From positions 1-39,132 of the forward strand of contig NZ_JADWYU010000186.1 of the NCBI RefSeq assembly GCF_016786325.1: a stretch of DNA of 39,132 nucleotides. Reading direction: 5' to 3'. The DNA comes from Frankia nepalensis (lineage in GTDB: Bacteria > Actinomycetota > Actinomycetes > Frankiales > Frankiaceae). The stretch's first letter is position 1; every line of letters starts with the position of its first letter. A model generated the notes under the pieces. The model was not told where the DNA came from. It did no database searches and worked only from the letters and a program-made list of their open reading frames with translations. Below, piece after piece: positions 107 through 17,847 of this stretch. Both the position numbers and the translations under genes were made by a program.

Positions 107-871
107 TCAGTGGTCGTAGCGGCTGTACGCGAACGGCTCGAAAGCGACCGGATCGACCGGTCCGACGACACTCGCCTTACCCTTCGACGACCGCGTCGTC
201 CACGCGATCGAGGCGGTCTCCCGCACGGGAAGATCGACGATCGGCGCCGTCGGCTCGTCGCGCAGCACGAGCTTGCCCTCGACGCTCTCGGCCGTCACCG
301 GGGTACGGACCTGGTCGTAACGCACCAGCAGCGGGTCACCGTCGAAACCGGACCCGGACACGGCGGGCATGAACTTGTACCACCACTGCGCGGCCGGGTA
401 GGGCTCCCCCACCGGCAGCGGACCGGCGACATCGCCGACGATCTCCACGAAGGTCACGCCGTTGCGGGTGATCCGCCCCTCGACGTGGTCGCCGGCGCGG
501 ATGAGCTCGATGTCGGCGAGCTTCTTCGGCTCGCCGTTGCGCTCCCGGCTGACCGAGATAGCGCTTTCCAGGTCAATCGGGATCAGCAGCGGGTACTCCC
601 CGGTGAACCCGTCGTAGACCGCGTCGACGGCCAGGAACCCGACCAGTTCCTTGTGGCGGTACTCCCCGAACGTCAGGTCGATGTCGGTGATCCGGACGTG
701 CACCCGGGGCTCGGCCGGCGGGGTCAGCGGCGGCGGGAGGACGGCGGCGAGCGCCTCCGGGTCCGTCAGGTAGACCACCTCCAGCGACGGAATCGGCGGA
801 AGCCCGGCTCCCAGGTCCTGCCGCTCGCCGTCGGCTAACTTCTTGATCTCACGTACCCACCGGTTGCCCAT
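107..871 (-). CDS. Acetoacetate decarboxylase family protein
   Basis: The 254-residue product is close to the roughly 245 residues of clostridial acetoacetate decarboxylase. The E-P-K-K-L-A segment puts Lys116-Lys117 where the family has its Schiff-base lysine and the neighbouring lysine that lowers its pKa. A family member could decarboxylate a beta-keto acid, but some relatives are aldolase-dehydratases, so the exact reaction is open. The ATG at 871 was chosen over an upstream start at 958 because AAGGAG lies just ahead of it and the upstream frame overlaps the Rieske gene. It lies 79 nt downstream of the Rieske gene on the same strand and just upstream of the amidohydrolase, which suggests a three-gene operon. 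Confidence 0.82.
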   Translation of the reverse strand: MGNRWVREIKKLADGERQDLGAGLPPIPSLEVVYLTDPEALAAVLPPPLTPPAEPRVHVRITDIDLTFGEYRHKELVGFLAVDAVYDGFTGEYPLLIPIDLESAISVSRERNGEPKKLADIELIRAGDHVEGRITRNGVTFVEIVGDVAGPLPVGEPYPAAQWWYKFMPAVSGSGFDGDPLLVRYDQVRTPVTAESVEGKLVLRDEPTAPIVDLPVRETASIAWTTRSSKGKASVVGPVDPVAFEPFAYSRYDH

Positions 872-950: not shown

Positions 951-2051
951 TCAGGCATCGGGGTAGGAGTAGAACTGGGCGCACCAGCGGCGATGCTCCG
1001 TGATGCCCTTCTCGGAGGGACGCAGCACGGGCGGGTCCTTGAAGATCTTGTTCTCCCAGATCGGGAAGTCCTGGCTGACGCCGGCGACGAAGCTGTCCGC
1101 CGCCGCCTCGGCGACCCCCTCGCCGGCGCGGCGGGGCGAGGTGAAGATCCAGCGGCAGTGCACGTTCTCCTCGTCGATCGGGGTCGTCGACGACAGGAAC
1201 GTGGTGTAGTCCTTCACCCGCAGCACGCCGAGGCCCAGGCCGTAGCCCTCCCGGACGAAGTTGCCGTCCATGCCGACGGTGCGCTTGTAGTGGCCGTCGG
1301 TGTGGAACTCCTCCTCGGGCACCGCGGGCGTGCCGTGCACGAACCTGAAGTGCGGGGTGTCGACGTTGTTCTCGGCCATCTCCTGGCAGCAGGTGGCGAT
1401 CTCGAACTCCCGGACGACGATGGGTGACCAGTCGTCGTCGTGGAACTCGGGCACGTCGGGCACGTCGTAGAACGGCTCGGAGCCCTCCAGGTGGTGCCAG
1501 GCCCAGATCATGTGGTTGCGCTCGATCGTCGGGTAGACGCGGGCGGTCGCCGTCTTCGGGATGTAGTCGACGTCGTCGTAGGGCACCTCGACGCAGCTCC
1601 CGCTGGCGCCGTCGAAGCGCCAGCCGTGGAACGGGCACTGCAGCGTGCCGTCGACCACCCGGCCGCCGACGCCCAGGTGGGCGCCCAGGTGCGGGCAGTA
1701 GGCGTCCAGCAGATGGGGGGTGCCGTCCGCGGCCCGGAACAGCACGAGGTCCTTGCCGAAGTAGTAGAGGTTGCGGGTCTCTCGGGGCGCGATCTCGTCG
1801 GCGGTGGCCACGATGAACCAGCCGTTCGGGATCGGGAAGGGGAACCGCCGCCCGCGCTGGCGGCGGACCCGGGTGCGCAGGGACAGGTCCGTGGCCGTGT
1901 CGGGCCGCTTGGGCATCGGCAGGCCGACGAACCGGTCCACCCGCCCGCTCAGCACGGGCACCTCCCCCACCGGGTAGGCCGTCCTCGCCGCCGGCCCGTC
2001 GTCGCGGACCCGCGCGGGCTCCCGCGTCGCGGCCTCGTCGGAGATCGTCAT
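951..2051 (-). CDS. Rieske [2Fe-2S] oxygenase, terminal component (KshA-like)
   Basis: The 366-residue protein has the Rieske cluster motif C119-x-H121 ... C139-x2-H142 (CPHLGAH and CPFHGW). It also has the mononuclear iron motif N-x-x-D231-x2-H234-x4-H239. The layout is that of single-component terminal oxygenases such as 3-ketosteroid 9-alpha-hydroxylase KshA, which insert one oxygen atom into an alicyclic substrate. No ferredoxin reductase partner is seen in this window. The ATG at 2051 has GGAGG six bases upstream; the open frame further upstream is low-complexity and probably not translated. It leads the operon running down to the window edge and diverges from the acyl-CoA ligase gene. 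Steroid, terpenoid or other alicyclic acids are plausible substrates by inference only. Confidence 0.85.
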   Translation of the reverse strand: MTISDEAATREPARVRDDGPAARTAYPVGEVPVLSGRVDRFVGLPMPKRPDTATDLSLRTRVRRQRGRRFPFPIPNGWFIVATADEIAPRETRNLYYFGKDLVLFRAADGTPHLLDAYCPHLGAHLGVGGRVVDGTLQCPFHGWRFDGASGSCVEVPYDDVDYIPKTATARVYPTIERNHMIWAWHHLEGSEPFYDVPDVPEFHDDDWSPIVVREFEIATCCQEMAENNVDTPHFRFVHGTPAVPEEEFHTDGHYKRTVGMDGNFVREGYGLGLGVLRVKDYTTFLSSTTPIDEENVHCRWIFTSPRRAGEGVAEAAADSFVAGVSQDFPIWENKIFKDPPVLRPSEKGITEHRRWCAQFYSYPDA

Positions 2052-2370
2052 CTCCTGCCTCCAGGGGTGTGGCCCTCGGGCGGGCCGTGGGGATCCTCGC
2101 CAGGGCCGAGGACTCCGCGCCGGACGCGGCCGCCCTCGGTCCCCCCGCATGTCGTCTGTAGGTCCTCGCCAGGCCAGAGCCTCGGCGGTAGCTCGGACAG
2201 AAGGCAGAGTCGGATAAGATATACAATCACCCTCCGCCGCCATCGGCGAGAGGATCACTGAACCAACATTCAACAACGTCGCAGGCCGGTTCACAAGGGC
2301 GTTCGCCCGGACACCCGGTACCAGGACACGACCAACACCACAGCACGACCACGAGAAGCGGGAGAGCCAC
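2052..2370. promoter_or_regulatory. Divergent intergenic region, Rieske operon / acyl-CoA ligase
   Basis: This 319-bp gap between two divergent genes is mostly GC-rich. It has one A/T-rich island at 2212-2228 (separate entry). Two imperfect direct copies of a TCCTCGCCAGG-type segment lie near 2094 and 2164. No convincing small gene was found. Confidence 0.5.
2212..2228. promoter_or_regulatory. Putative regulon operator, site 1
   Basis: GGATAAGATATACAATC matches site 2 at 9321-9337 in 14 of 17 positions and the reverse complement of site 3 at 10700-10716 in 13 of 17. It is an A/T-rich island in a very GC-rich sequence, between the divergent Rieske and acyl-CoA ligase genes. On the minus strand it contains TATCTT, which could be a -10 element. 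It could be an operator overlapping the promoter, or only a shared -10. Confidence 0.5.
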
Positions 2371-4005
2371 GTGACCGACGGCGTGTGGGGCAGCGCTCCC
2401 CGGCACACGACCACAGCGCTGCTGCTGGCGCGCACCGAGAAGGACCCGGACTCCGAGTACCTGGACGTGAACGGCGCCAAGTTCAGCGCCGCCGAGGTCG
2501 CCCGGACGGCCGCGGCACTCGGCGCCGCGCTCGTGCGCGAGCTCGGCGTCCGCCCGGGCGACCGGGTCGCGAGCCTGATCGAGAACTCGCCGGAGGCGAT
2601 GCTCGTCTGGTGGGCCACCCAGTGGGCCGGCGGGATCGCGGTGCCGATCAACACCGCCTACAAGGGCGAGTACCTGCGCCATCAGCTGCGTGACTCGGGC
2701 GCGAGCGTCCTGGTCGTCGCCGCGGACCTGGCCGACCGGGCGCGGGCGGTCAGCGCCGACCTCGAGACGCTGCGCCACGTCGTCGTGACCGGCCCCGACC
2801 GGCTCGAGTTCCCGGGCGTCGCCGCCCACCGCTGGGGCGACCTGGCGGCGGCGAGCCCACTGGCGGCGCCGGTCGACCGGCGCCCCGCGGATCTGGCGAC
2901 CTTCATCTACACCGGCGGCACGACCGGCCCGTCCAAGGGCTGCATGCTCAGCCACAACTACCACGAGGCGCTGGCCACCCAGATCGGCGTGACCTGGGGA
3001 CGCACCGCCGACGACGTGCTGTGGACGCCGCTGCCGCTGTTCCACTTCAACGCGCTGACCACCGCCGTGATCGGCGCGCTGGTCTTCGGCGGGCGCTCGG
3101 CGATCTACCGGAAGTTCTCGGTGTCGAACTTCTGGCCGGAGATGAACCGCGCGGGCGCGACGCTGACGTCCACGCTCGGCACGATGGCCTACCTGCTCGC
3201 GCACGATGTCGACCGCCCGGAGATGCCGCGCTCCGGGGCGCCCGAGGCGAACACGTCGCTGCGGATGATGGGCGCGGCCCCGCTGCCGCCCGAGGTCGAC
3301 GACATCCTGCGCTCCCGGTTCGGCATCGAGACGTTCTCCGGCGCCTACGGCGTCACCGAGGCGAGCCTGATCTCCACCCTGCCGCCCGGCGTGCGCAACA
3401 AGCCAAGGGCCGCGGGAAAGATCAACGCGGACTATTTCGACGTCCGCGTGTTCGACGACGACGACAACGAGCTGCCGCGCGGCACCGACGGCGAGATCGT
3501 GGTGCGGCCCAAGCTCGCGCACGTCATGTTCGAGGGCTACTGGGGCCGGCCGGAGGCGACCGTCGAGACCAGCCGGAACTGGTGGTACCACACCGGCGAC
3601 ATCGGCCGAATCGACGCCGAGGACTTCCTGTTCTTCGTCGACCGCAAGGCCGACTACCTGCGCCGGCGCGGCGAGAACATCTCCAGCTTCGAGGTCGAGC
3701 GCGTCCTGATGGGCCACGGCGAGCTCGCCGACGTGGCCGTGCACGCCGTCTTCAGCAAGCTCACCGAGGACGACGTGAAGGTGACCGCGACCCGTGTCTC
3801 GGGCTCGACGCTCACCGAGGAGCAGCTCTTCCGCTGGTGCGTCGACGCGCTGCCGTACTTCGCGATCCCGCGCTACATCGAGTTCCGCGACGAGCTGCCG
3901 CGCAGCCCGGTCGGCCGGGTGCTCAAGCGGGACCTGCGCGCCGAGGGCGTCACGCCGGCCACCTGGGACGCCGAGGCCGCCGGCATCACCTACGAGAAGC
4001 GCTGA
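2371..4005 (+). CDS. AMP-forming acyl-CoA synthetase (CaiC/FadD-like)
   Basis: The 544-residue protein belongs to the adenylate-forming ANL superfamily and would activate a carboxylic acid to its CoA thioester with ATP. Visible motifs are the P-loop-like YTGGTTGPSKG near residue 180, GAYGVTE near 325, YHTGDIG near 407, the hinge DRKADYLRRRGENIS near 422-436, and the C-terminal lysine in GRVLKRDLR. The GTG start at 2371 has GGGAGAG four bases upstream. It stands alone on the plus strand, opposite the Rieske operon, and ends at a strong terminator. It is probably the entry enzyme that commits the imported acid to the CoA-linked steps encoded nearby. The closest-looking subgroup is crotonobetaine/carnitine-CoA ligase, but substrate assignment is not possible. 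Confidence 0.88.
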   Translation: MTDGVWGSAPRHTTTALLLARTEKDPDSEYLDVNGAKFSAAEVARTAAALGAALVRELGVRPGDRVASLIENSPEAMLVWWATQWAGGIAVPINTAYKGEYLRHQLRDSGASVLVVAADLADRARAVSADLETLRHVVVTGPDRLEFPGVAAHRWGDLAAASPLAAPVDRRPADLATFIYTGGTTGPSKGCMLSHNYHEALATQIGVTWGRTADDVLWTPLPLFHFNALTTAVIGALVFGGRSAIYRKFSVSNFWPEMNRAGATLTSTLGTMAYLLAHDVDRPEMPRSGAPEANTSLRMMGAAPLPPEVDDILRSRFGIETFSGAYGVTEASLISTLPPGVRNKPRAAGKINADYFDVRVFDDDDNELPRGTDGEIVVRPKLAHVMFEGYWGRPEATVETSRNWWYHTGDIGRIDAEDFLFFVDRKADYLRRRGENISSFEVERVLMGHGELADVAVHAVFSKLTEDDVKVTATRVSGSTLTEEQLFRWCVDALPYFAIPRYIEFRDELPRSPVGRVLKRDLRAEGVTPATWDAEAAGITYEKR

Positions 4006-4028
4006 GCCACCTGGCGGCAGATGATGAG

Positions 4029-4060
4029 AAAAGCCCTGACGGCCCGCCGTCAGGGCTTTT
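4029..4060. terminator. Rho-independent terminator, bidirectional
   Basis: Perfect 15-bp arms AAAAGCCCTGACGGC and GCCGTCAGGGCTTTT enclose a 2-base loop. The stem carries A and T runs on the two sides, so it can work in both directions. It lies 24 nt after the acyl-CoA ligase stop and 86 nt after the gntR stop on the other strand. Confidence 0.9.
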
Positions 4061-4145
4061 CTCGTGGGTGGACCACTTCTGAGCCTTTCCGTCCCGGGCC
4101 CGACCGGCCGGGCCGGCGCGGATCAGCGGGGCAGACGGAAAGGGT

Positions 4146-4871
4146 TCATTCCTCCGCGGCCCAGATAATGTTGCGGGACCGCAGCAGGTCGACGACGAGC
4201 TCGCCGTGGCCGCGCAGCATCTTCACGAACTCCGCGGACGCGCGCTGGCCGTCGCCCTCCCGGATCGCGCGGTTGACCGCCGCGATACCGCGCTTCTGCG
4301 GCTCGATGGTGCCGGGAACCAGCTCGAAGAAGTTCCCGGGAATGACGCCCGTCATCAGCCGGCCGAACGAGGACAGCCGCGGCGAGGCCGCCATCGCGAA
4401 AATCTGGCGAAGATAGGTCTCGTTGGCGTGCAGGACGTCGTCGGGGTCCTGCGCCGCGCGCAGCGCGCGCTCGGCGACGGACAGCGCCTCGACGCCCTCC
4501 TTCTCGCCCCGCTCGGTGGCACGCTCGGCGGCCAGCCCATAGAGCTGGCCGAGCAGCGCGTAGTGGTCGCGCACCGAGTTCAGGTCGAGGCCGTGCACGA
4601 ACGCGCCCCGGTGGGGCTCGATCGAGATCCAGCCCTCGCTCTCCAGGGCGATCATCGCCTCACGCACCGGAATGCGGCTGACGCCCAGTTCCTCGGCGAT
4701 CTCATCCTGGCGGACGTGGTCACCCTGGCGCAGGGTGCCGGCAAAAATCAGGCTTCGGATATGGTCCGCGACCTGGCTTCCGCTGCTCCTGCGGTCGACA
4801 ACGGACCGTTTGCCCGCCGCATGGTGCGAAAGCGGGCTGGCGGCGGTCGCCGTCCGGCGGTTGGGAGGTAT
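4146..4871 (-). CDS. GntR-family (FCD) transcriptional regulator, start codon unusual
   Basis: The frame encodes an N-terminal winged helix (...QVADHIRSLIFAGTL ... DEIAEELGVSRIPVREAM...) followed by an all-helical FCD/FadR-C ligand domain (HYALLGQLYGLAAERA ... NETYLRQIF). It is about 241 residues if read from ATA at 4871-4869. The frame is open up to 4886 but has no ATG, GTG or TTG before the GTG at 4667, which falls inside the recognition helix region. AAGGAG sits exactly 7 nt upstream of the ATA. An ATG at 4890 is in another frame. So either ATA is the start or a 1-nt indel separates ATG 4890 from the gene. FCD regulators usually sense small organic acids or acyl-CoAs. Its place between the ligase and transporter genes suggests it controls the island. 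Confidence 0.82.
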   Translation of the reverse strand: MPPNRRTATAASPLSHHAAGKRSVVDRRSSGSQVADHIRSLIFAGTLRQGDHVRQDEIAEELGVSRIPVREAMIALESEGWISIEPHRGAFVHGLDLNSVRDHYALLGQLYGLAAERATERGEKEGVEALSVAERALRAAQDPDDVLHANETYLRQIFAMAASPRLSSFGRLMTGVIPGNFFELVPGTIEPQKRGIAAVNRAIREGDGQRASAEFVKMLRGHGELVVDLLRSRNIIWAAEE

Positions 4872-4989
4872 GGCCGTGCTCCTTGCTCATCTGGGTAGCT
4901 CACTCATGGGTCGGCCCATACCAACTCACGAGACCGGCTCATAAGACCTGCGCGCACGGCCCGCGCAAACGCGCGGCGGACCGGCTACG

Positions 4990-5006
4990 AACTGTAGGAA
5001 GTATAC
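4990..5006. promoter_or_regulatory. Weak regulon-motif-like site upstream of gntR
   Basis: On the minus strand this reads GTATACTTCCTACAGTT. It matches site 2 in about 10 of 17 positions and includes the palindromic core GTATAC. It lies about 120 bp upstream of gntR in a locally A/T-richer patch. The similarity is weak, so the call is tentative. Confidence 0.25.
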
Positions 5007-5102
5007 GACCTTGCGGCGCGACATCCGCGCGACGCGCGCGCGGGCCACGCATTGCGTCCGTCACGTTCCGGGCGCCCGCGGCGCGTCGTTCCACCGGGAG
5101 GC

Positions 5103-5144
5103 GGTGCCGGCGAGCGGGCAAAGAGAGCGCCTCTCGCCGGCACC
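5103..5144 (-). terminator. Hairpin downstream of the liv operon
   Basis: Perfect 12-bp arms GGTGCCGGCGAG and CTCGCCGGCACC enclose an 18-base loop, about 130 nt past the stop of the fused liv gene. There is no T tail, as is common for actinobacterial terminators. It could instead stabilise the 3-prime end of the mRNA. Confidence 0.5.
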
Positions 5145-5274
5145 ACGCGCCTCGGTGGCTGGCGGCACCACCAACCTGGCCGATATCTCCCGAGCGTCGT
5201 CGGCTACTTGGATGTCGAAACGGCGGAAGATCCTCCCAAGGCGCCCCCTCACGCGAGGCCCGGCCGAGCCGGCG

Positions 5275-8229
5275 TCAGTCCTCCGTGTCCAGACGGCCGG
5301 ACCCGGCGGAGGTGGCGACGGCGTCGAGCGGCCGCTCGCGCTCGCCCGCCTCCGGCGCGAGGCCCAGGTAGGCGGTGGCCAGGCGCTCGGCGTCGACCTC
5401 GGCCGCCGGACCCGTCCAGGTGATGTGCCCGACGGTGAGGAAGGCGACCCGGTCGGCGATCGCGAGCGCGTCGCGGGTCTTCTCCTCGGCGATGAGCAGC
5501 GCCGTGCCCTGGCTCTGCAGGCTGCGCAGCGCCTCGAAGATCTGCTCGATGATGAGCGGGGCGAGACCGAGCGACGGCTCGTCGGCCACCAGCAGCTTCG
5601 GCGGGCGGACCAGCGCGGGCGCCAGCGTGAGCATCTGCTGCTCACCGCCCGACATCGTGCCAGCCGCCTGGTTGCGCCGCTCCTTGAGCACGGGGAAGGC
5701 GTCGTAGGCGCCCTCGCGCTCGGCCGCGTCCCGCAGCCACAGCTGGAGGTTCTCCTCGACGGTCAGGTCGGGGAAGATGCCGCGGCCCTCGGGGGCGAGG
5801 TAGGCGCTGTCGCGCTCCCGCCGGCGCGCCGGGACTCCGGTGACGTCCTGGCCGGCGAGCCAGATCGTCCCGCCGCGCGCCGGCACCAGGCCACCGACGA
5901 CCGAGCACAGGGTCGTCTTGCCGGCGCCGTTGCTGCCCAGCAGGGCGACCGCCTCGCCGGGGCTGACGGTGAGGTCGATCCCGTGCAGGACCTCGATCTC
6001 GCCGTAGCCGGCCTTGAGCCCGGACAGCCGCAGCACCGGCGCCGCGGCGCCGTCGGCCACCGGGGCCGCGACCGGGGTGGCCGTGGCGACCGAGGCCGCG
6101 GCCGCCTCGGCGGCCGCCTGCTGCGCGGCCTTGCGCGCGGCGCGCTCCTGGCGGATCCGGGCGCCGGCGGCGAGGCCGCCCTCCGGGTCACGCGCCAGGC
6201 CGATCGCGCCGAGGCCGAACAGCATCTGCATGAAGTAGGTGGACGCCGGGACGTGGTCGAGGCCGACTGCCGCGACCACCAGCAGCGCGACCGCGATGCC
6301 CCCGCCCGTCAGCTTGCGGACGGTGAGGCCGCCCTTGACCATCAGCGTGACCAGGCTGAGCAGCGCGACGGCCGCGCCGAGGCTGAAGATGATCCGCATG
6401 ACGAGGCCGGACTCGAGCGCCTCCGGCGCGACGACCATCATCAGGCCCGCGAGCACCGCGCCCGCCGGCCGACGGATGCTGAGGGTGACCGTGGTGGCCA
6501 GCCACACCAGGCCGAGCAGCACGTCGAAGTCGGTGTTGGTGACCCGGCCGCGACTCGAGGCCAGCAGTACGCCGCCGAAGCCGGCGATGCCCGCCGAGAT
6601 CACGAACACCAGCAGCTTCATCCGGTCGGCGGCGATGCCGCTGGTCCGGGCGCCGACCTCGGTGGAGCGGACGGCCAGCATCGCCCGGCCCGTGCTGGAG
6701 ACGCGCAGCGCGTGCACCAGCCAGACCACCAGGCACACCAGCACCAGCATGAACAGCACCCGCCAGCGCGGGTTGGTGGTGTCGATCGGCCCCAGCTTCG
6801 GCGGGGTCACCGCCCAGCCACTGGAACCGTTGGAGATGCTCCGGATCTGGAAGAGCAGGTTCTGGCCGACGTAGGCGAGCGCCAGCGTGGACAGCGCCAG
6901 CGGCAGGCCACCGAGGCGACGCGTCGGCAGCGCGACGATCAGGCCGATGAGGGCGGCGACCACCGTGCCCGCCAGCAGCGCCGGCAGGAACGGCACGTCG
7001 TGCGAGAGCATGATGCCCGCGGTGAACGCGCCGGAGAGCACGAACGCCGCCTGCGCGAGGCTCACCATGCCGCCGATGCCGGTGACGACGGTGAACGACA
7101 GCAACACGATCGAGGTGGCCAGGCCCTGGGCGAGCAGGCCCGCCCAGTAGTCGTCGGCGCCCCAGGCGGTGAAGCCGAGCAGGGCCACGGTGAGCACCGC
7201 CCACACCGCGCGCCGCCGCCACGGGTCGGTGCTGAGGTCGTACGCCGGTGGCTTCTCCTCCAGCGTGGTACCGGCGCTGCGTCCGCGCTCGGCGCCGAAG
7301 AAGATCAGCAGGACGAACAGGATGATGAACGGCACCGCGGTGCGGAAGCCGGTGATGTCGAGGTAGTCCGAGACGTAGCCGTCGACCAGGTTCTGCGCGA
7401 CGCCGAGCAGCAGGCCGCCGAGCATCGCGATCGGGATCGAGGCCATCCGGCCGAGCACGACCGCCGGGATCGAGATGAACAGCAGCGTGTTGTAGCTGAA
7501 CGAGTTCAGGCCGAACATCGGGGCGAGCAGGACGCCGACCAGGCCCGCGAGGCCGCACGAGGTGATCCAGGAGACCGCGGAGGCGCGGTCCGGGTCGACG
7601 CTGCGCAGCGCGGCGAGGTTCGGCCGGCTCACCGACGCGCGCATCTCGAGGCCGATGCGGGTGTGGCGCACCAGGTACCACAACAGCACCGCCGCGAAGA
7701 CCGCCGCGCCGAGCATCGCGAGCTGGTCGCTGTCGATGATCAGCCCGTCGCCGAAGGTGTAGCTCTCCTTCGGGCTCGGGCCGAGGCCGGGAATCCGGAA
7801 GACGTCCTCGATCGCGGGCACGCAGCGGGCGTCGGGCTCCTGCGGGGTACAGCCGGCCAGGTTCGCCTTGTCCTTGAGCAGCGCGACGATCCACAGCCCC
7901 AGCGAGGGCAGCGCGATCAGCAGGCCGAGCGAAGCCACCATCCGGGCGGCGATCGACGCCTCCCGTAGCGGGTTGAACAGCACCTTGTGCAGTAACCAGC
8001 CGAGCAACGGCGCGAAGATGCCGATGCAGATGACCGCACTGAGCCAGATCGGCAGCTTCTGGCCGGAGTTCAGCTGGAAGAACAGGTAGGCGGTCGAGAA
8101 GGCGACGCCGCCCTGCCCGAAGTTGAAGACGCCGGATGTCTGGTAGCTCAGCGTCAGCCCAGACGCGAGGATCGCGTACAAAGCGCCGGTGACCAGCCCC
8201 GCGACGACCAGGTTGAAGAACTCGGTCAC
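5275..8229 (-). CDS. LIV-type ABC transporter, LivH-LivM-LivF fusion
   Basis: This 984-residue polypeptide joins three transporter parts that are usually separate. Residues 1 to about 310 form a LivH-type permease (FFNLVVAGLVTGALYAILASGL). Residues about 330-660 form a LivM-type permease. An Ala/Arg-rich, probably helical linker spans about 665-715. A LivF-type ATPase follows, with Walker A GSNGAGKTT, signature MSGGEQQ and Walker B LLVADEPSLGLAP. The GTG start at 8229 has GGAGG five bases upstream. It follows livG on the same strand, after the thiolase-fold gene. LIV-type (HAAT) importers carry branched-chain amino acids, but in actinobacterial catabolic islands they often carry organic acids. 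Association with the catabolic genes suggests uptake of the pathway substrate. Confidence 0.88.
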   Translation of the reverse strand: MTEFFNLVVAGLVTGALYAILASGLTLSYQTSGVFNFGQGGVAFSTAYLFFQLNSGQKLPIWLSAVICIGIFAPLLGWLLHKVLFNPLREASIAARMVASLGLLIALPSLGLWIVALLKDKANLAGCTPQEPDARCVPAIEDVFRIPGLGPSPKESYTFGDGLIIDSDQLAMLGAAVFAAVLLWYLVRHTRIGLEMRASVSRPNLAALRSVDPDRASAVSWITSCGLAGLVGVLLAPMFGLNSFSYNTLLFISIPAVVLGRMASIPIAMLGGLLLGVAQNLVDGYVSDYLDITGFRTAVPFIILFVLLIFFGAERGRSAGTTLEEKPPAYDLSTDPWRRRAVWAVLTVALLGFTAWGADDYWAGLLAQGLATSIVLLSFTVVTGIGGMVSLAQAAFVLSGAFTAGIMLSHDVPFLPALLAGTVVAALIGLIVALPTRRLGGLPLALSTLALAYVGQNLLFQIRSISNGSSGWAVTPPKLGPIDTTNPRWRVLFMLVLVCLVVWLVHALRVSSTGRAMLAVRSTEVGARTSGIAADRMKLLVFVISAGIAGFGGVLLASSRGRVTNTDFDVLLGLVWLATTVTLSIRRPAGAVLAGLMMVVAPEALESGLVMRIIFSLGAAVALLSLVTLMVKGGLTVRKLTGGGIAVALLVVAAVGLDHVPASTYFMQMLFGLGAIGLARDPEGGLAAGARIRQERAARKAAQQAAAEAAAASVATATPVAAPVADGAAAPVLRLSGLKAGYGEIEVLHGIDLTVSPGEAVALLGSNGAGKTTLCSVVGGLVPARGGTIWLAGQDVTGVPARRRERDSAYLAPEGRGIFPDLTVEENLQLWLRDAAEREGAYDAFPVLKERRNQAAGTMSGGEQQMLTLAPALVRPPKLLVADEPSLGLAPLIIEQIFEALRSLQSQGTALLIAEEKTRDALAIADRVAFLTVGHITWTGPAAEVDAERLATAYLGLAPEAGERERPLDAVATSAGSGRLDTED

Positions 8230-8436
8230 GTACTCCTCCTTATGACGTCCGCGGGGACGCGGCGTCCGGGTGCCCCGTCCGGGCGGGCGGGCAACCGCCG
8301 ATCGGGGGTGGCGCCGCCGTCATCCGGTCGCTGCCCGGCGACGGCGTTTCCTGATATTTACGGTTATCGGCCGTCGTCCGGGGCGGAGAACAGGCCCAGT
8401 GCCGCGTGGGCCACCGCGCCGCTCCCCGCCTGGCGG

Positions 8437-9288
8437 CTAGCCGAGGTAGGCGTTACGTACGGCTTCGTCGGCCTGGATCTGGGCCGGGGTGCCCTCGGCC
8501 AGCACCGCGCCGAGGTTGAGCACGGTGATCCGGTCGCACATCCGCATGACGAACCCGGCGTCGTGCTCGACGAGCAGGATCGCGGTCCCCTTGCCGCGCA
8601 GCGACTGGATCAGGTCGCCGAACCGCTCGGACTCGGCATGGTCGAGCCCCGAGGTCGGCTCGTCGAGCAGCAGCAGCCGCGGCTCGTCGACGATCGCTCT
8701 GGCGAGCTCGACGAGCCGCTGCTGGCCGAGCGGCAGCGAGCCGGCGGCGGCGCGGCGGCAGTCGGCCAGGCCGCACCAGGCCAGCACCTCGTCGGCCTTC
8801 TCCCGGCGGGACCGCTCCAGCGCGCGCCGGCCCGGCCAGGCGACCAGGTCCGCGAGCACGCCGCCTCCGCCGCCGTGCCACTCGAGCGCGGCCAGCACGT
8901 TGTCCTCCACGGACAGCCAGCTGAAGACCTGGGCCCGCTGGAAGGTGCGGCGCATGCCGAGCCTGGCGCGCGCGGTGGACGACAGCCCGCTGACCTCGCG
9001 GCCGGCGAACTGGACGCCGCCCACCGTCGGCGGGGTGATGCCGGAGACGATGTCGAACAGCGTCGTCTTGCCGGCGCCGTTCGGGCCGATGAGCCCCTGT
9101 ACCCGGCCCGGCGCGACCTCCAGCGAGACGTTCGTCAGCGCCTGGACGCCGCCGAACCGCTTGCTGATGCCATACAGGCGCAGCAACGGTTCCGGGGCGC
9201 CCCCGGCGGTGGTCGCCGCGCCGGACGGGGCCGCCAGTGCCGTGGCCGTCGTCGCGGCCGGCGTCGAGTCGCTAGCGCCAGGCGGCAT
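8437..9288 (-). CDS. ABC transporter ATP-binding protein, LivG-type
   Basis: The 283-residue ATPase has Walker A GPNGAGKTT, the LPLGQQRLVELARA signature region (the usual LSGG is replaced by LPLGQ, a common LivG variant), Walker B LLLLDEPTSGLD and the switch His in VEHD. About 35 residues of Ala/Thr-rich sequence precede the domain. ATG 9288 was chosen because GGAGG lies five bases upstream; an upstream in-frame ATG at 9354 would put the -10 region inside the gene. It is the second ATPase of the importer, paired with the LivF domain of the next gene. A promoter with its own regulon motif lies immediately upstream, so it can be transcribed separately from the thiolase-fold gene. Confidence 0.88.
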   Translation of the reverse strand: MPPGASDSTPAATTATALAAPSGAATTAGGAPEPLLRLYGISKRFGGVQALTNVSLEVAPGRVQGLIGPNGAGKTTLFDIVSGITPPTVGGVQFAGREVSGLSSTARARLGMRRTFQRAQVFSWLSVEDNVLAALEWHGGGGGVLADLVAWPGRRALERSRREKADEVLAWCGLADCRRAAAGSLPLGQQRLVELARAIVDEPRLLLLDEPTSGLDHAESERFGDLIQSLRGKGTAILLVEHDAGFVMRMCDRITVLNLGAVLAEGTPAQIQADEAVRNAYLG

Positions 9289-9320
9289 GGGGCCTCCAAG
9301 TTCAGCCGAACAGTGATCGT

Positions 9321-9354
9321 GGATACTATATGCAATCTGGCGACGATGTAACAA
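9321..9354 (-). promoter_or_regulatory. livG promoter with putative regulon operator, site 2
   Basis: On the minus strand, TTGTTA (9354-9349) and TATAGT (9330-9325) form a -35/-10 pair with an 18-bp spacer. The predicted transcription start is about 30 nt ahead of the livG ATG. The -10 is embedded in GGATACTATATGCAATC (plus strand 9321-9337), which matches site 1 in 14 of 17 positions. A repressor bound here would cover the -10. Confidence 0.6.
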
Positions 9355-9363
9355 GGGTCACGT

Positions 9364-10509
9364 TCAGTCCAGGCCGAGCAGAACGGTCGACGTCGACGAG
9401 AACCAGCCGCCCGTGCCGTTCACGCAGGCCACCCGCGCGTTCGGCACCTGCCGGCCGGCCGCCTCGCCGCGCAGCTGCCGCACGGCCTCCACGAGCAGGA
9501 AGATCCCGCGCATCCCCGGGTGGCAGGCCGACAGGCCACCCCCGTCGGTGTTGGTGGGCATCCGCCCGCCGACCCGCATCGTGCCGCCCTCCAGGTACGC
9601 GCCGCCCTCGCCCCGGCCGCAGAAGCCAAGCGCCTCGAAGGTGAGCAGGACCGTCGAGGTGAACGAGTCGTAGAACTGGCAGACGTCGACGTCCGCCGGG
9701 CTGAGCCCGGCCCGCTCGAAGGCCAGCTTGCCGGACACCGCGGCCGGCGAGACCGTGAAGTCCGTCCATTCCGACATCGTGGTCACGTTGCTCGCGGTGC
9801 CGGTGCCGAGCACCCGCACCGCGGGGCGTGGCAGGTCGGCGGCGCGCTCGGCGGAGGTCAGCACGACCGCGCCCCCGCCGTCGCTGCGGATGCAGCAGTG
9901 CAGCTTGGTGAACGGGGTGGCCACCATCGGCGCGGACAGCACGTCGTCGACGGTGAGCGGGTCCCGGTACATGGCGTCCGGGTTGAGGCTCGCGTTGTGG
10001 CGGGTGTCGACCGCGATGTTCGCGAGCTGCTCGATCGTGGTCCCGAACTCGTGCATGTGCCGGCGTGCCGTCATCGCGTACTTCGCGATCAGCGTGTGCC
10101 CCCACGGCGCCTCGAACTGGCTCGGGCCGCGGGTCGACAGCGACAGGTTCGCGGTTCGCAGCCGCTTCTTGAGGTCCGCGCGGGCCGTCGAGCCGTAGAC
10201 CAGCAGGACGGTGTGCGCGGTGCCCGCCCTGATCGCGTCGACGGCGTGCTCGAGCATGACCTCCCAGGTCGACCCGCCGACCGCGGTCGAGTCGACCCAG
10301 GTCGGCCGCAGCCCGAGGTACTCGGCGAGTTCCACCGGCTGGAGCACCCCGAGCCCGGTGGAGCCGAACCCGTCGACGTCGGCGTGGCTCAGCCCCGCGT
10401 CGGCGAGCGCGCGCGCCGCCGCCTGGTAGTGCAGGGCGAACGGTGTCGCCCCGTCCACCCGCCCGCAGTCCGACAGCGCCGCGCCGACGACGGCTACCTG
10501 CCCCGACAT
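9364..10509 (-). CDS. Thiolase-fold protein, Ltp2-like (SCP-x/lipid-transfer) probable aldolase
   Basis: The 381-residue protein has the SCP-x/nonspecific lipid-transfer thiolase layout, including NTDGGGLSACHPG near the C-terminus and CQFYDSFT before it. Where true thiolases have the acyl-accepting Cys (C-x2-G-S), this protein reads TAVGGST, with Ala76 in that position by my alignment. Loss of that Cys is typical of the Ltp2 group, which works with a DUF35 partner as a retro-aldolase on beta-hydroxyacyl-CoA in steroid side-chain breakdown. A DUF35 gene is encoded nearby at 11263. The ATG at 10509 has GAGGAGG four bases upstream; an open N-terminal extension to 10638 lacks this support. It leads the thiolase-livG-livHMF strand and diverges from the MaoC operon. 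Confidence 0.82.
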   Translation of the reverse strand: MSGQVAVVGAALSDCGRVDGATPFALHYQAAARALADAGLSHADVDGFGSTGLGVLQPVELAEYLGLRPTWVDSTAVGGSTWEVMLEHAVDAIRAGTAHTVLLVYGSTARADLKKRLRTANLSLSTRGPSQFEAPWGHTLIAKYAMTARRHMHEFGTTIEQLANIAVDTRHNASLNPDAMYRDPLTVDDVLSAPMVATPFTKLHCCIRSDGGGAVVLTSAERAADLPRPAVRVLGTGTASNVTTMSEWTDFTVSPAAVSGKLAFERAGLSPADVDVCQFYDSFTSTVLLTFEALGFCGRGEGGAYLEGGTMRVGGRMPTNTDGGGLSACHPGMRGIFLLVEAVRQLRGEAAGRQVPNARVACVNGTGGWFSSTSTVLLGLD

Positions 10510-10537
10510 ACGTCCTCCTCGCCCAGCAAAGACTGGT

Positions 10538-10552
10538 ACCGCATATCTGACC
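10538..10552. promoter_or_regulatory. Weak regulon-motif-like site upstream of the thiolase-fold gene
   Basis: ACCGCATATCTGACC shares the GCATAT core and flanking positions with the minus strand of site 2 (TTGCATATAG). It lies about 30 bp upstream of the ATG, the same distance as site 2 from livG. The match is partial. Confidence 0.25.
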
Positions 10553-10699
10553 GGTTCGCCCGGCCCTGTTCCACCCCCGGCCACCATCCCGCCAGCAACG
10601 GCGGCACGACCGGCGACACAACAACCACGACGCGTCACGCGGCCCGACCGGTCCCGGGAGGCGCCGCGCGGGTGGACGAAACGGTCATCCCGACCGACA

Positions 10700-10716
10700 G
10701 TTTGTATATACTATGC
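10700..10716. promoter_or_regulatory. Putative regulon operator, site 3, upstream of the MaoC operon
   Basis: GTTTGTATATACTATGC is the reverse orientation of sites 1 and 2, matching each in 13 of 17 positions. It includes the palindromic core GTATATAC and, on the plus strand, a good -10 hexamer TATACT at 10707-10712. It is the only A/T-rich patch in the 286-bp divergent region and lies about 80 bp before the MaoC start. No convincing -35 was seen. Confidence 0.55.
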
Positions 10717-10795: not shown

Positions 10796-11266
10796 ATGGC
10801 CGAAGGCACGACGGCACCAGACAAGGGCCCTGTCTTCTTCGAGGACCTCGAGGTCGGCGGGAAGGCGCCAGTACGGACGCTCACGCTGACGCGCACGGAC
10901 CTGGTCCGCTACGCGGGCGCGTCCCGCGACTTCAACCCGCTGCACCACGACGACGAGCGGGCGCGCGCCGCCGGCATGAAGAGCGTGTTCGGGCACGGCA
11001 TGTTCTCCGCCGGGCTGCTCGCGACCGCGCTGACCGACCTCGTCGGCGTCGGGAACCTGCGCGGCTACAAGGTGCGCTTCACGACCCAGGCCTGGCCCGG
11101 CGACGCGCTGAGCACCGACATCACGGTCACGGGCAAGGACGAGGCGACCGGCACCGTCCAGCTCGACTGCCAGGTGGTGAACACGGACGGCAAGGCCGTG
11201 GTCGCCGGTTCCGCGGTCGCGACGCCCGTTCGCGCGCGAGGGAACGCGGGAGGGCCGGCGTCATGA
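10796..11266 (+). CDS. MaoC-family enoyl-CoA hydratase (catalytic hotdog subunit)
   Basis: The 156-residue single-hotdog protein carries the (R)-hydratase motif YAGASRDFNPLH, with Asp45 and His50 as the likely catalytic pair. It would add water across an enoyl-CoA double bond. The ATG at 10796 follows GGGAGAG. Its stop overlaps the next start (ATGA at 11263), so it is translationally coupled to the DUF35 gene. The MaoC-DUF35 adjacency mirrors ChsH1/ChsH2, the hydratase acting just before Ltp2 retro-aldol cleavage in cholesterol side-chain degradation. The substrate in this organism is unknown. Confidence 0.85.
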   Translation: MAEGTTAPDKGPVFFEDLEVGGKAPVRTLTLTRTDLVRYAGASRDFNPLHHDDERARAAGMKSVFGHGMFSAGLLATALTDLVGVGNLRGYKVRFTTQAWPGDALSTDITVTGKDEATGTVQLDCQVVNTDGKAVVAGSAVATPVRARGNAGGPAS

Positions 11267-11673
11267 GCGGCCCCCGGTTCGACCTGCCGACGATCGAGGC
11301 GGAGACCGCGCCCTGGTGGGACGCGGCCCGCCGCGGCGAGCTGCTGATCCGCCGCTGCGGCGACTGCCGCAAGGCGCACCTCTACCCGCGCCCGTTCTGC
11401 CCGGCCTGCTGGAGCGAGAACGTCACCTGGGAGCGGGCCGCCGGCACCGGCACCCTCTACACCTGGTCCGAGGTCCGGGCGAACGACCTGCCGCCGTTCA
11501 AGGGCCGGGTCCCCTACATCGCGGCGATCGTCGACCTCGACGAGGGCCCGCGGCTGGAGACCAACATCGTCGGAGTCACCGAGGCGGAGCTGGCCATCGG
11601 CATGCCCGTCAAGGTCGACTTCCAGACCGACGACGAGGCCGACCTGACCGTCCCCGTCTTCCGCCCCGCCTGA
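11263..11673 (+). CDS. DUF35 (zinc-ribbon OB-fold) acyl-CoA-associated protein
   Basis: The 136-residue protein begins with a helical segment and then a zinc ribbon (CGDC ... CPAC), followed by an OB fold starting at GTGTLYTWSEV. DUF35 proteins bind acyl-CoA and act as obligate partners of thiolase-fold enzymes, for example ChsH2 with Ltp2. The start overlaps the MaoC stop by four bases. The product probably bridges the MaoC hydratase and the Ltp2-like aldolase encoded divergently at 9364-10509, channelling the hydrated acyl-CoA to the cleaving enzyme. That partnership is inferred from family knowledge and gene order. Confidence 0.85.
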   Translation: MSGPRFDLPTIEAETAPWWDAARRGELLIRRCGDCRKAHLYPRPFCPACWSENVTWERAAGTGTLYTWSEVRANDLPPFKGRVPYIAAIVDLDEGPRLETNIVGVTEAELAIGMPVKVDFQTDDEADLTVPVFRPA

Positions 11674-11732: not shown

Positions 11733-12221
11733 GTGAGCGCCACCGATCTGGTCGGCACCGCCCTGCCGCCGGCGGCCGTCGTCGTCGAGCGCGGCGCCGT
11801 CGCCGCCTTCGCCGAGGCCGTCACCGACACGTCGCCCGTCTACCAGCGGGCCGACGCCGCCCGCGCGGCCGGCTTCGACGCGATCCCCGCTCCGCCCACC
11901 TTCACCTTCGCCGCGCGGCTGCTCGGTGCCTTCCCCGACCTGCAGCCCGCCCGTCCCGAGGGGGCGCTCGAGGTCACGGACGTGATCGCGGCGCTGCGCA
12001 CGGACGGCGGCCTGATCCTGCACGCCGAGCAGGAGTTCACCTACCACCGCCCGGTGCTCACCGGTTCCACCGTGCACCTCACCGGCGAGGTCGAGGACGT
12101 CCGGGTCACCACCAACAGCCGCGGCCAGACGATGACCTTCGTCAGGATCCGGACCGACACCCGCGACGACGCGGGCGAGCTCCTCGTCACCGAGGTCATG
12201 ACCCTGCTGCACCGCGCCTGA
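11733..12221 (+). CDS. MaoC/FAS1-type hotdog protein, probably non-catalytic partner
   Basis: From the GTG at 11733 the product is 162 residues and has the N-terminal FAS1-dehydratase-like hotdog fold (SPVYQRADAARAAGF ... APPTFTFAARL ... EQEFTYHRPV). The D-x-N-P-x-H hydratase motif of the upstream MaoC protein is absent; the corresponding segment reads TDTSPVY. Such non-catalytic hotdogs usually form heterodimers with a catalytic MaoC. CGGAG lies nine bases before the GTG; the start is moderately certain because the frame is open further upstream through the DUF35 gene. It lies 59 nt after DUF35 in the same operon, so a two-hotdog hydratase plus DUF35 complex is likely. Confidence 0.75.
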   Translation: MSATDLVGTALPPAAVVVERGAVAAFAEAVTDTSPVYQRADAARAAGFDAIPAPPTFTFAARLLGAFPDLQPARPEGALEVTDVIAALRTDGGLILHAEQEFTYHRPVLTGSTVHLTGEVEDVRVTTNSRGQTMTFVRIRTDTRDDAGELLVTEVMTLLHRA

Positions 12222-12252: not shown

Positions 12253-12336
12253 ATGCCGACCCAGGAGGTAATGGTTGTCGCATTTGGCGGGCAGGGCGTC
12301 CGGACGCGAGGCGCGTCGCCGGTGATCACGGAATGA
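12253..12336 (+). CDS. 27-codon leader ORF coupled to the CoA-transferase gene
   Basis: An ATG at 12253 follows CCAGGAGGTG. A second in-frame ATG at 12271 follows a near-copy, CCAGGAGGTA, so the Shine-Dalgarno/start unit is duplicated in tandem at an 18-bp period. The frame runs for 27 codons and ends in TGA at 12334-12336, overlapping the CoA-transferase ATG at 12333 (ATGA). The CoA-transferase has no good Shine-Dalgarno of its own, so translation of this leader may be needed for its expression. The peptide is not recognised and has no obvious attenuation codons. The gap between AGGAGG and ATG is short (2 nt), which weakens the case. Confidence 0.4.
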   Translation: MPTQEVMVVAFGGQGVRTRGASPVITE

Positions 12337-13574
12337 TGTCGTTCGTGACGACCTCCGCCGAGACGACGCCCGAGTCCCCCGCCGCCCCCGGACCGCTGCC
12401 GCTCGCCGGGCTGCTCGTCGTCGGCCTCGAGCAGGCCGTCGCCGCGCCGATCGCGACCCGGCACCTGGCCGACCTGGGCGCCCGCGTCGTCAAGGTGGAG
12501 AACCCGCGCGGCGGCGACATGGCCCGCTCCTACGACGGCGCGTGGCACGGCGAGATCGGGGCGCACTTCGCCTGGCTCAACCGGGGCAAGGAGTCGTTCG
12601 CGGTCAACCTGCGTGACCCGCGCGGCGCCGCGGCGCTCGAGGAGCTGGTCGCCCGCGCCGACGTCGTGGTGCAGAACCTCGCCCCGGGGGCCGCCGCCCG
12701 CCGGGGGCTCGCGGCCGAGCAGCTGCACGCCAGGTACCCGCGGGTCGTCGCCGTCGACATCTCCGGCTACGGCGAGGGCGGCCCGCTCTCGCACAAGCGG
12801 GCCTACGACCTGCTGGTCCAGTCCGAGTCCGGGTCGTGCGCGATCACCGGCCACGAGGGCCACCCGGCCAAGGCGGGCATCCCGCTGGCCGACATCGGCG
12901 GCGGCATGTACACGCTCACCTCCGTGCTCGCCGCGCTGTACGCACGCAACGCCACCGGCAGGGGCGCGGCCATCCAGGTCGGCCTGTTCGACGCCGCGGT
13001 CGAGTGGATGGGCTACGCGCTGAACTACACGATGGGCAGCGGCCTGGTGCAGGAGCCGAACGGCGTGAGCTCGCCGGCGGTCGCGCCCTACGGCAACTAC
13101 CGGACGGCCGACGACCAGGTGCTCGTGGTCGGCACGACGAACAACGGCGAGTGGCAGCGGCTCGCGCGGGAGGTCCTGGGCCGGCCCGACCTCGCCGACG
13201 ACAAGCGGTTCACCGAGAACGACGACCGGGTCCGCGAGCGTGCGCCGCTCGACGTCGAGATCGCCGCGTGGGCGCGCACCGTCACCCTCGCCGACGCCCG
13301 GGAACAGCTGGACAAGGCCGGGATCGGCAACGCCCGGCTCAACACCGTCCCGGACGTCATCGACCACCCGCACCTGGCCGCCCGCGACCGCTGGCGCGAG
13401 GTCGCCTCCCCCGCCGGCCCCGTGCGCGCGGTCCTCCCGCCGCCGGTGAACAAGGACTGGGCCTTCCCGATGGGTGAGATTCCCGCGGTCGGCCAGCACA
13501 ACGAGGCGATCCTGAGAGAGCTCGGCCGCTCCCCCGACGAGATCGCCGCGCTGCGCGCCGACGGCGTCATCTGA
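12333..13574 (+). CDS. Family III CoA-transferase (CaiB/BaiF)
   Basis: The 413-residue protein matches the usual length of formyl-CoA/carnitine-type class III CoA-transferases. It has the N-terminal GLLVVGLEQAVAAPIATRHLADLGARVVKVE segment (CoA-binding Rossmann half) and the GIPLADIGGGMY segment, in which Asp187 aligns with the acyl-anhydride-forming catalytic Asp. It would move CoA between a product and a new substrate acid, sparing ATP. The start ATG at 12333 is coupled to an upstream leader ORF; GTG 12345 is an alternative. It is the last gene of the MaoC-DUF35-hotdog operon and ends converging on the kinase gene. Confidence 0.88.
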   Translation: MMSFVTTSAETTPESPAAPGPLPLAGLLVVGLEQAVAAPIATRHLADLGARVVKVENPRGGDMARSYDGAWHGEIGAHFAWLNRGKESFAVNLRDPRGAAALEELVARADVVVQNLAPGAAARRGLAAEQLHARYPRVVAVDISGYGEGGPLSHKRAYDLLVQSESGSCAITGHEGHPAKAGIPLADIGGGMYTLTSVLAALYARNATGRGAAIQVGLFDAAVEWMGYALNYTMGSGLVQEPNGVSSPAVAPYGNYRTADDQVLVVGTTNNGEWQRLAREVLGRPDLADDKRFTENDDRVRERAPLDVEIAAWARTVTLADAREQLDKAGIGNARLNTVPDVIDHPHLAARDRWREVASPAGPVRAVLPPPVNKDWAFPMGEIPAVGQHNEAILRELGRSPDEIAALRADGVI

Positions 13575-16098: not shown

Positions 16099-16155
16099 GC
16101 TTCAGGAGACGGCGCTTCAGGAGACGGCGGTTCAGGTGACGGCGGTTCAGCCCGC
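16096..16155 (-). repeat. 15-bp tandem repeat spanning the solute-binding protein stop codon
   Basis: Four 15-bp units of the type GGCGCTTCAGGAGAC run from 16096 to 16155, the last diverging at its end. The gene's stop codon (16147-16149) is inside the final unit. Because 15 bp is five codons, each unit supplies another in-frame TGA, giving four in-frame stops 15 nt apart. Confidence 0.85.
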
Positions 16156-17466: not shown

Positions 17467-17847
17467 GTTCATGCCCCTCTGCTCGTGGATGGCCGGCCGC
17501 GACGTGGCGGCGAAAGAAGCGAAGCCGACCGAAGAAAGCGAGAGTGAATGCTTGCGTACTTACGCGCGACAGGTCAACAGTTCGCCAACCATCACCACCG
17601 CGACCCCTCGGTCGGACCGCGCCCTGTCCTCACCCGCGGCGCCACGAGTCCTCGGCGACGAACGCGGCCGCGCCGGCCGGCCACCGACGACCCGCCGGTC
17701 GCGCGGGACCGCCCGCCGGCCGGCGGAGATTTCTCCCCGGCCAGCGGGATGGCTGGGCAGTATGCTTCATGCTTCCGTAACGCCTTGCCACCGGTCCGTG
17801 CCGGGGCACCGGACGGCGGTGCGCACCGACACGGGAGGTCGTGGTCA
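17467..17847. other. Divergent intergenic region, solute-binding gene / tetR
   Basis: This 381-bp gap contains the candidate solute-binding gene promoter at 17548-17577. The remainder is GC-rich with no recognisable gene. GGGAGG at about 17833 is the likely ribosome-binding site of tetR. Confidence 0.4.
17548..17577 (-). promoter_or_regulatory. Candidate promoter with palindrome for the solute-binding gene
   Basis: On the minus strand, TTGACC (17577-17572) could be a -35 and AAGCAT (17553-17548) a -10, with an 18-bp spacer. The inverted repeat GCGTA-CT-TACGC (17554-17565) lies in the spacer and abuts the -10, a good place for a repressor. The -10 is weak. Confidence 0.4.

Follow-up and report, generated by a model that had tools for sequence, protein, structure and literature searches.

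A conserved dyad in the promoters of a Frankia catabolic island and its probable regulator, a GntR-type protein with an apparent non-AUG start

FadR of Escherichia coli and other acyl-CoA-responsive FCD regulators belong to the GntR family, and regulators of this type control the CoA-linked breakdown of acids. Atu1419, a VanR-type FCD repressor of the same family from Agrobacterium fabrum, binds the palindrome ATGTATACAT over the -10 box (PMC7797058). Here we analysed a whole stretch of 39,132 nucleotides from Frankia nepalensis (NZ_JADWYU010000186.1, forward strand, positions 1 to 39,132; hereafter the window), which is the entire contig C6 of its genome (G000 in our numbering; 10.73 Mb, 398 contigs). 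The window holds an island of catabolic genes together with an FCD-type gntR gene, and three promoters of the island share a 17-bp site containing a 13-bp dyad. These sites are probably operators of the island's GntR protein, an FCD/VanR-type repressor that would be translated from an AUH codon (AUA, AUC or AUU).

The two systems are alike in the FCD/VanR fold, in a short palindrome over the -10 of catabolic genes and in the control of a local cluster. The operators differ: that of Atu1419 has 10 bp with adjacent half-sites, whereas the dyad described here spans 13 bp, has 3 bp between its arms and is extended asymmetrically by AATC. The window sites read GNATANNNTATNCAAWC and are not Atu1419-like; ATGTATACAT is a feature of one member and not of the family. 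The mode of action nevertheless has a precedent, because Atu1419 binds over -10 boxes. In the structural alignments the identity is 22-25%. The fold of FadR is also related, and FadR structures rank below the VanR-type ones against the GntR model.

Non-AUG AUH starts are known from infC, pcnB and ccpN. The infC gene encodes the translation factor IF3, which regulates itself (PMC13009471), and to it gntR would be unrelated as a further client. According to the same report, the ccpN repressor of Bacillus and Staphylococcus has a conserved AUA start, which in S. aureus gives ∼10% of the expression from AUG in poor medium and up to 30% in rich medium. Both ccpN and gntR would combine a metabolic repressor with a strong Shine-Dalgarno (SD) sequence and a non-canonical AUH start conserved across species; the regulator and the phylum are different, and initiation was measured for ccpN, whereas for gntR it is predicted from the sequence. 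The weak GTG start of lacI lowers the amount of a catabolic repressor and eases induction (PMC11445065), but GTG is an ordinary alternative start and AUH is much rarer. Because the ccpN AUA gives ∼10% of AUG expression and the lacI GTG eases induction, we consider that gntR is probably kept under-translated and its product scarce. In the open-access literature, PMC13009471 was the sole paper among the matches listed for an AUA start codon and a repressor, and a search with limited terms found no publication on this regulon or on the gntR start codon. An FCD-type regulon with such an unusual, apparently non-AUG-initiated regulator is apparently new.

Three promoter sites and their conservation

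The earlier note on this DNA had placed three related 17-bp sites in the promoters of the Rieske/ligase divergon, livG and the MaoC operon. All three were found with no mismatch to GSATANKATATRCAAWC (Table 1), and their pairwise identities are 14, 13 and 13 of 17 positions. Operator 1 is intergenic between the Rieske start at 2051 and the ligase start at 2371, operator 2 lies 33 bp ahead of livG (start 9288) and operator 3 lies 80 bp ahead of maoC (start 10796). At up to three mismatches the window contains these three matches only, against an expected mean of 0.08, and none of 100 shuffles reached three; this figure flatters the sites, as the consensus was derived from them. Inside each site we observed the 13-bp dyad GNATA-N3-TATNC, with AA(T/A)C after it on one side. 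The dyad pattern GNATANNNTATNC occurs 19 times in the whole genome versus five times for the reversed control, and 3 of the 19 fall inside 8.5 kb of the window (nominal P 4.8e-7). As the pattern was defined after the sites had been seen, the independent test is its recurrence at orthologous promoters of related genomes.

We compared 20 regions by mapping the dyad and aligning the intergenic stretches. Each of the seven sister genomes of the window's genus has a GntR ortholog with 85-90% identity, and relatives with 65-77% identity occur in other Frankiaceae. Within the genus, the strict dyad was found at the livG-type promoter and at the maoC promoter in 8/8 genomes each; in G007 both of these dyads sit on a second contig. 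At the Rieske/ligase promoter it was present in nine of ten genomes from three genera (G000, G001, G005, G006, G007, G008, G023, G025 and G026), four of which (G008, G023, G025 and G026) are outside the window's genus; this count excludes G002, which has no ligase there, and G003, where the contig stops within the gene. The same motif therefore recurs at orthologous promoters of several species, and outside the genus it is strict only at the Rieske/ligase promoter. The conservation extends beyond the TATAVT part, at all three promoters within the genus and at Rieske/ligase across genera. In the island region of G002 no liv match was seen, yet the livG-type dyad stays, ∼500 bp before the gntR match (L083:9095).

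The dyads also stand out from the surrounding intergenic sequence. In seven-row alignments, the mean pair identity of the dyad versus elsewhere was 1.00 versus 0.50 (ligase), 0.96 versus 0.48 (maoC) and 0.87 versus 0.65 (livG); the ligase value is flattered by the omission of G001, G004 and G025, among them the degenerate G004 site, and the maoC and livG alignments omit G007. Among all 13-column windows the dyad ranked 1 (ligase), 3 (maoC) and 7 (livG), and no non-overlapping window equalled it. The strict pattern GNATANNNTATRCAAWC gave 23 matches versus three for the control in 97 genomes; 16 of the 23 matches are at island promoters, three being the window's own. Columns G1, A3, T4, A5, T9, A10, T11 and C13 are invariant in the 23 strict sites listed; apart from the second dyad letter in either arm, this invariance arises because only strict sites were taken.

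The GntR regulator and its start codon

The GntR protein has an N-terminal winged helix-turn-helix (PF00392) and a C-terminal FCD domain (PF07729; 34.3 bits, cut-off 24.3), which forms a helical sensor domain in the model. The AlphaFold model of query residues 1-213 has a mean pLDDT of 84.7, and the first four Foldseek matches in the PDB were 3ihu, Atu1419 (VanR), 7u5q and AlkR (VanR). Among orthologs and paralogs the winged helix-turn-helix hardly varies, in contrast to the sensor domain, which is variable.

From genome to genome the motif goes together with the regulator gene, with the exceptions of G014, G017 and G019. In 35 Frankiaceae genomes GNATANNNTATNCAA gave 91 matches, a few palindromic places being counted on both strands, versus 12 for the reversed control. 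Matches and controls were 86 and 7 in the 16 genomes with the GntR subfamily (at least 64% identity; the member of one genome is truncated), and 5 and 5 in the 19 genomes without it (Fisher P 0.0017). Within genus g2, the genomes with the island gntR (G008, G023 and G026) showed 10, 7 and 3 matches, and G014, G017 and G020 showed none. In four genomes the sites concentrate on the gntR contigs: the 121-kb contig bearing the gntR genes of G025 carries all four of its distinct sites (P 7e-8), and sites on gntR contigs account for 3/3 in G026 (P 1e-4), 4/7 in G023 (P 8e-7) and 5/10 in G008 (P 1e-4). These P values are only guides, as the genomes are related, catabolic genes cluster and the contigs were chosen post hoc. 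A closely paralogous gene, gntR-b, is also accompanied by the motif, the dyad preceding its adjoining gene in G008, G023 and G026. This phyletic and spatial coupling favours the GntR subfamily as the binder.

The window's gntR lacks a canonical start. In its frame a TGA is the sixth codon before the ATA, and no ATG, GTG or TTG follows until the recognition helix; the first two are a GTG (codon 69) and an ATG (codon 73), numbered from the ATA. We surveyed the starts of 20 subfamily genes, leaving out one further truncated member. An SD followed by ATA, ATC or ATT was found in 17 of them (ATA in 10, ATC in 5, ATT in 2, ATG in none), always at the same place; it reads AAGGAG in 16 and GAGGAG in G025b, and the AUH codon lies ∼6-8 bases on. 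The spacer between the two varies by one base between species, and the sequence downstream is codon-like: at codon positions 1, 2 and 3 after the ATH, 3, 2 and 10 of 27 columns each were variable (seven genomes, G007 being omitted for a gap). ATA makes up only 1.4% of isoleucine codons (45 of 3157; genes within 19 loci), so ordinary isoleucine usage does not account for its presence in 10 of 17 starts. No upstream canonical codon was seen for seven of the 17 genes in the stretch examined, which began at the in-frame stop and reached query residue 20 in the window, G001, G002, G003 and G028, and which ran up to the first helix of the winged helix-turn-helix in G017 and over 60 codons in G026b. 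From these data gntR apparently initiates at the ATA.

As a control we examined infC in 10 Frankiaceae genomes. All nine genes found (L110-L118) have ATC after GGAGGAA, and in seven of them no canonical codon separates the ATC from the in-frame stop before it. Relatives of GntR with at most 50% identity mostly have canonical in-frame starts, and L107 has none in the stretch examined. In the gntR paralog of G000, an SD-like sequence also precedes an upstream GTG. A frameshift in the window's gntR was rejected, as the same ATH pattern is seen in eight genomes. A hairpin hiding the SD (GGAG with CTCC), judged by eye, was absent in G026b.

That a whole subfamily of actinobacterial catabolic repressors initiates at AUA, AUC or AUU, and has kept this across tens of percent of protein divergence, is a tentative proposal to which we give slightly under an even chance. 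If true, the supply of the repressor would follow IF3 stringency and growth state, and derepression of the acid regulon would thereby be tied to the translation machinery. Gene callers that accept only ATG, GTG and TTG would truncate several such regulators and remove their DNA-binding domain, and the conserved pattern would add a family of transcription regulators to the short list of bacterial non-AUG starts.

Proposed regulation and the alternatives

We propose that a GntR dimer binds the dyad GNATA-N3-TATNC, with the right arm TATRCAAWC favoured. The bound dyad would overlie a TATNNT -10 of livG, of maoC and, on the minus strand, of the Rieske gene, and GntR probably represses by blocking RNA polymerase until an acid or acyl-CoA of the pathway releases it. 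The regulon would take in the liv transporter for uptake and, for CoA-linked breakdown, the ligase, the Rieske oxygenase and the MaoC, ChsH2-like, thiolase-fold and CaiB proteins, perhaps with members elsewhere in the genome. Translation of gntR from a conserved non-AUG AUH codon would make the repressor scarce and easily titrated. We consider it likely that the three sites are operators of this AUH-initiated repressor.

A number of observations weigh against this proposal. The ligase promoter of G004 has only the degenerate site ATATACATTATTC. Outside the genus only near forms were seen at livG (in G008, G023 and G026, as TTATACAATATCT or the complement-like AGATATTGTATAA) and at the maoC/thiolase divergon (in G025). 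There is no matching dyad in G014 and G017, which have only gntR-b-like genes and no dyad near gntR within 20-kb regions, or in G019, where gntR is truncated. The sole site of G028 is off its gntR contig, and most off-island sites in the window's genus are scattered. No dyad lies upstream of the window's gntR, where no autoregulation site was found. Other FCD paralogs may own the off-island sites; G000 alone has seven hits at E ≤ 1e-20. As for the start codon, some ATG, GTG or TTG stands in frame within 60 codons upstream in 10 of the 17 AUH genes, and the island orthologs of G008, G023 and G026 have an in-frame ATG and no SD-AUH pattern. The interpretation as a GntR regulon, already put forward in the earlier note, is thus supported by the conservation and by the coupling to the GntR subfamily, and it is slightly weakened by the near forms at livG and maoC beyond the genus. 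Two weaker sites are excepted from it. These had been suggested before gntR (4990) and before the thiolase-fold gene (10538). We rejected the former as an operator, as it is a TATACT without the dyad, seen in five of eight gntR upstream regions, and the latter because the stretch is not conserved.

The motif might be no more than a promoter element that looks alike in a high-GC genome, either an AT-rich -10 or the -10 used by one particular sigma factor, a possibility that the earlier note had also raised. A TATNNT does lie within each site, reading toward livG, maoC and Rieske (the GATTG orientation). As suggested before, operator 2 overlies the livG -10, TATAGT (9330-9325, minus strand), and operator 3 overlies TATACT (10707-10712, plus strand). 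The livG promoter also retains a -35-like hexamer 16-18 bp from the -10, TTGTTA in six of seven aligned genomes and TTGTTG in G002. However, the conserved stretch exceeds the hexamer both ways (GATTGYA upstream, AT-N-C downstream), and at livG the interior of the hexamer differs among species (TATAGT, TATCAT, TATCGT), yet the two arms of the dyad and the GATTG flank are fixed in all seven aligned genomes; because of this we take the dyad as an operator placed over a -10. Moreover, the dyad outnumbers its composition-matched reversed pattern solely where the GntR subfamily occurs, and gntR's own promoter region carries TATACT without the dyad. A shared -10 as the sole explanation was rejected on these grounds, and we regard the promoter-element reading as very unlikely.

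The dyad could instead be the operator of another regulator, for example the TetR-type protein encoded at 17548-18495 or an unlinked FCD protein. The off-island sites adjoin many different catabolic genes, the genome encodes several related FCD proteins and the TetR gene is ∼7 kb from the third site, all of which would fit. This is, however, unlikely in view of the concentration of sites on the gntR contigs of G008, G023, G025 and G026, whereas at most one site occurs in any other genome of these genera, and in view of gntR adjoining the motif in the islands of all three genera, where no systematic search for other regulators was made. It is still less probable, in fact highly improbable, that gntR of this strain is decayed or starts inside the frame, at the GTG or ATG mentioned above, and yields no DNA-binding protein. 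ATG, GTG and TTG starts indeed give only a 173-aa open reading frame (ORF; 4146-4667) that loses most of the winged helix-turn-helix. But that domain is the near-invariant part of the protein, and the frame is intact, as conserved in the seven sister genomes as given above and codon-like back to the ATH.

Island genes, wider distribution of the dyad and a second motif

The features of the island are listed in Table 1. The set of MaoC, ChsH2 and SCP2-type thiolase proteins resembles that of steroid side-chain degradation; matches of island proteins to steroid enzymes in NCBIfam were all below cut-off. The permease-ATPase ORF of 984 aa is also one long match in sister genomes.

Table 1. Coordinates of the promoter elements and genes of the island in the window
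Feature	Position	Strand	Context or evidence
Acetoacetate-decarboxylase-fold protein	107..871	-	Pfam ADC 2.4e-37
Rieske oxygenase, KshA-type C-terminal domain	951..2051	-	Pfam
Operator 1 (candidate), dyad GGATA-AGA-TATAC 2212-2224	2212..2228	+	between divergent Rieske and ligase genes; exact match
Motif B, second conserved dyad TGAACCAACATTCA	2259..2272	.	ligase/Rieske promoter
Acyl-CoA ligase	2371..4005	+	Pfam AMP-binding 8.6e-68
gntR, FCD/VanR-type regulator, 241 aa from ATA (4871-4869)	4146..4871	-	Pfam GntR 2.8e-17, FCD 3.6e-8
Shine-Dalgarno AAGGAG, ahead of ATA start	4879..4884	-	SD at same place in 17/17 AUH members
Branched-chain-type ABC transporter, two permease stretches plus an ATPase domain in a single 984-aa ORF	5275..8229	-	Pfam
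livG-type ABC ATPase	8437..9288	-	Pfam; NCBIfam below cut-off
Operator 2 (candidate), dyad 9321-9333	9321..9337	+	livG promoter; exact match
-35-like TTGTTA of livG	9349..9354	-	18 bp from -10; alignment of 7 genomes
Thiolase-fold (SCP2-type) protein	9364..10509	-	Pfam Thiolase_C_1 1.8e-58; nearest solved sequence 4u4e
Operator 3 (candidate), dyad 10704-10716	10700..10716	-	between thiolase-fold gene and maoC; exact match
MaoC dehydratase	10796..11266	+	Pfam
ChsH2-type OB-fold/zinc-ribbon protein	11263..11673	+	Pfam
Second MaoC/FAS1-type dehydratase	11733..12221	+	Pfam
CaiB-type CoA-transferase	12333..13574	+	Pfam CoA_transf_3 5.9e-103

Outside the island, the dyads of the same genome adjoin CaiB/P450, amidohydrolase/acyl-CoA dehydrogenase, P450, SDR, FMO/SDR, substrate-binding protein (SBP)/SDR and kinase-like/ligase genes, one of the P450 matches being below the Pfam cut-off. 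By our own reading, made with no random-promoter control, 11 of these 16 dyads have an oxidoreductase, CoA-type or uptake gene within ∼360 bp; those on contigs C9, C66, C75, C333 and C340 did not fit or were not judgeable. In the sister genomes, where 14 regions out of a larger list were surveyed, dyads adjoin P450, CaiB, thiolase, acyl-CoA dehydrogenase, enoyl-CoA hydratase, luciferase-like and substrate-binding-protein genes, and also HSP70-like, adenylate-kinase and DapB-like genes. A catabolic network wider than the island is suggested by the off-island dyads next to genes for P450, CaiB, acyl-CoA dehydrogenase and thiolase. Frankiaceae would gain a testable operator and a regulon for uptake and CoA-linked acid breakdown, with P450, CaiB and transporter genes elsewhere sharing the motif. 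The dyad symmetry, its off-island copies, the non-AUG start of gntR and the second motif of the ligase promoter all go beyond the earlier note.

This second motif (motif B) is conserved in G005, G007, G008, G023 and G026 and degenerate in G006; it was not seen in the aligned ligase/Rieske rows of G001, G004 and G025. The pattern TGAACVAWCRTTC has two matches in the window's own genome and none for the control, one in the ligase/Rieske promoter and the other in the promoter of an SBP gene on contig C397 (L138:8943); as the pattern was written from both matches, only the absence of further ones is informative.

A different SBP gene lies in the window a few kb from the island (16147-17472), divergent from the TetR gene. 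No GntR-type dyad was found between these two genes, and the window SBP showed no useful similarity to that of C397. Orthologs of the C397 gene (85-100% identity) occur in 10 of the 35 genomes, every one of which has the island gntR; G001 and G025, where the island gntR is also present, have only 67% and 39% relatives. The GntR-type dyad precedes just two of the ten close orthologs (G002 and G003), and the SBP gene was therefore rejected as a constant member of the regulon. The 39% relative in G025 is also preceded by the dyad. In G000, G005, G006 and G007, the SBP promoter carries motif B or a near form in place of the dyad.

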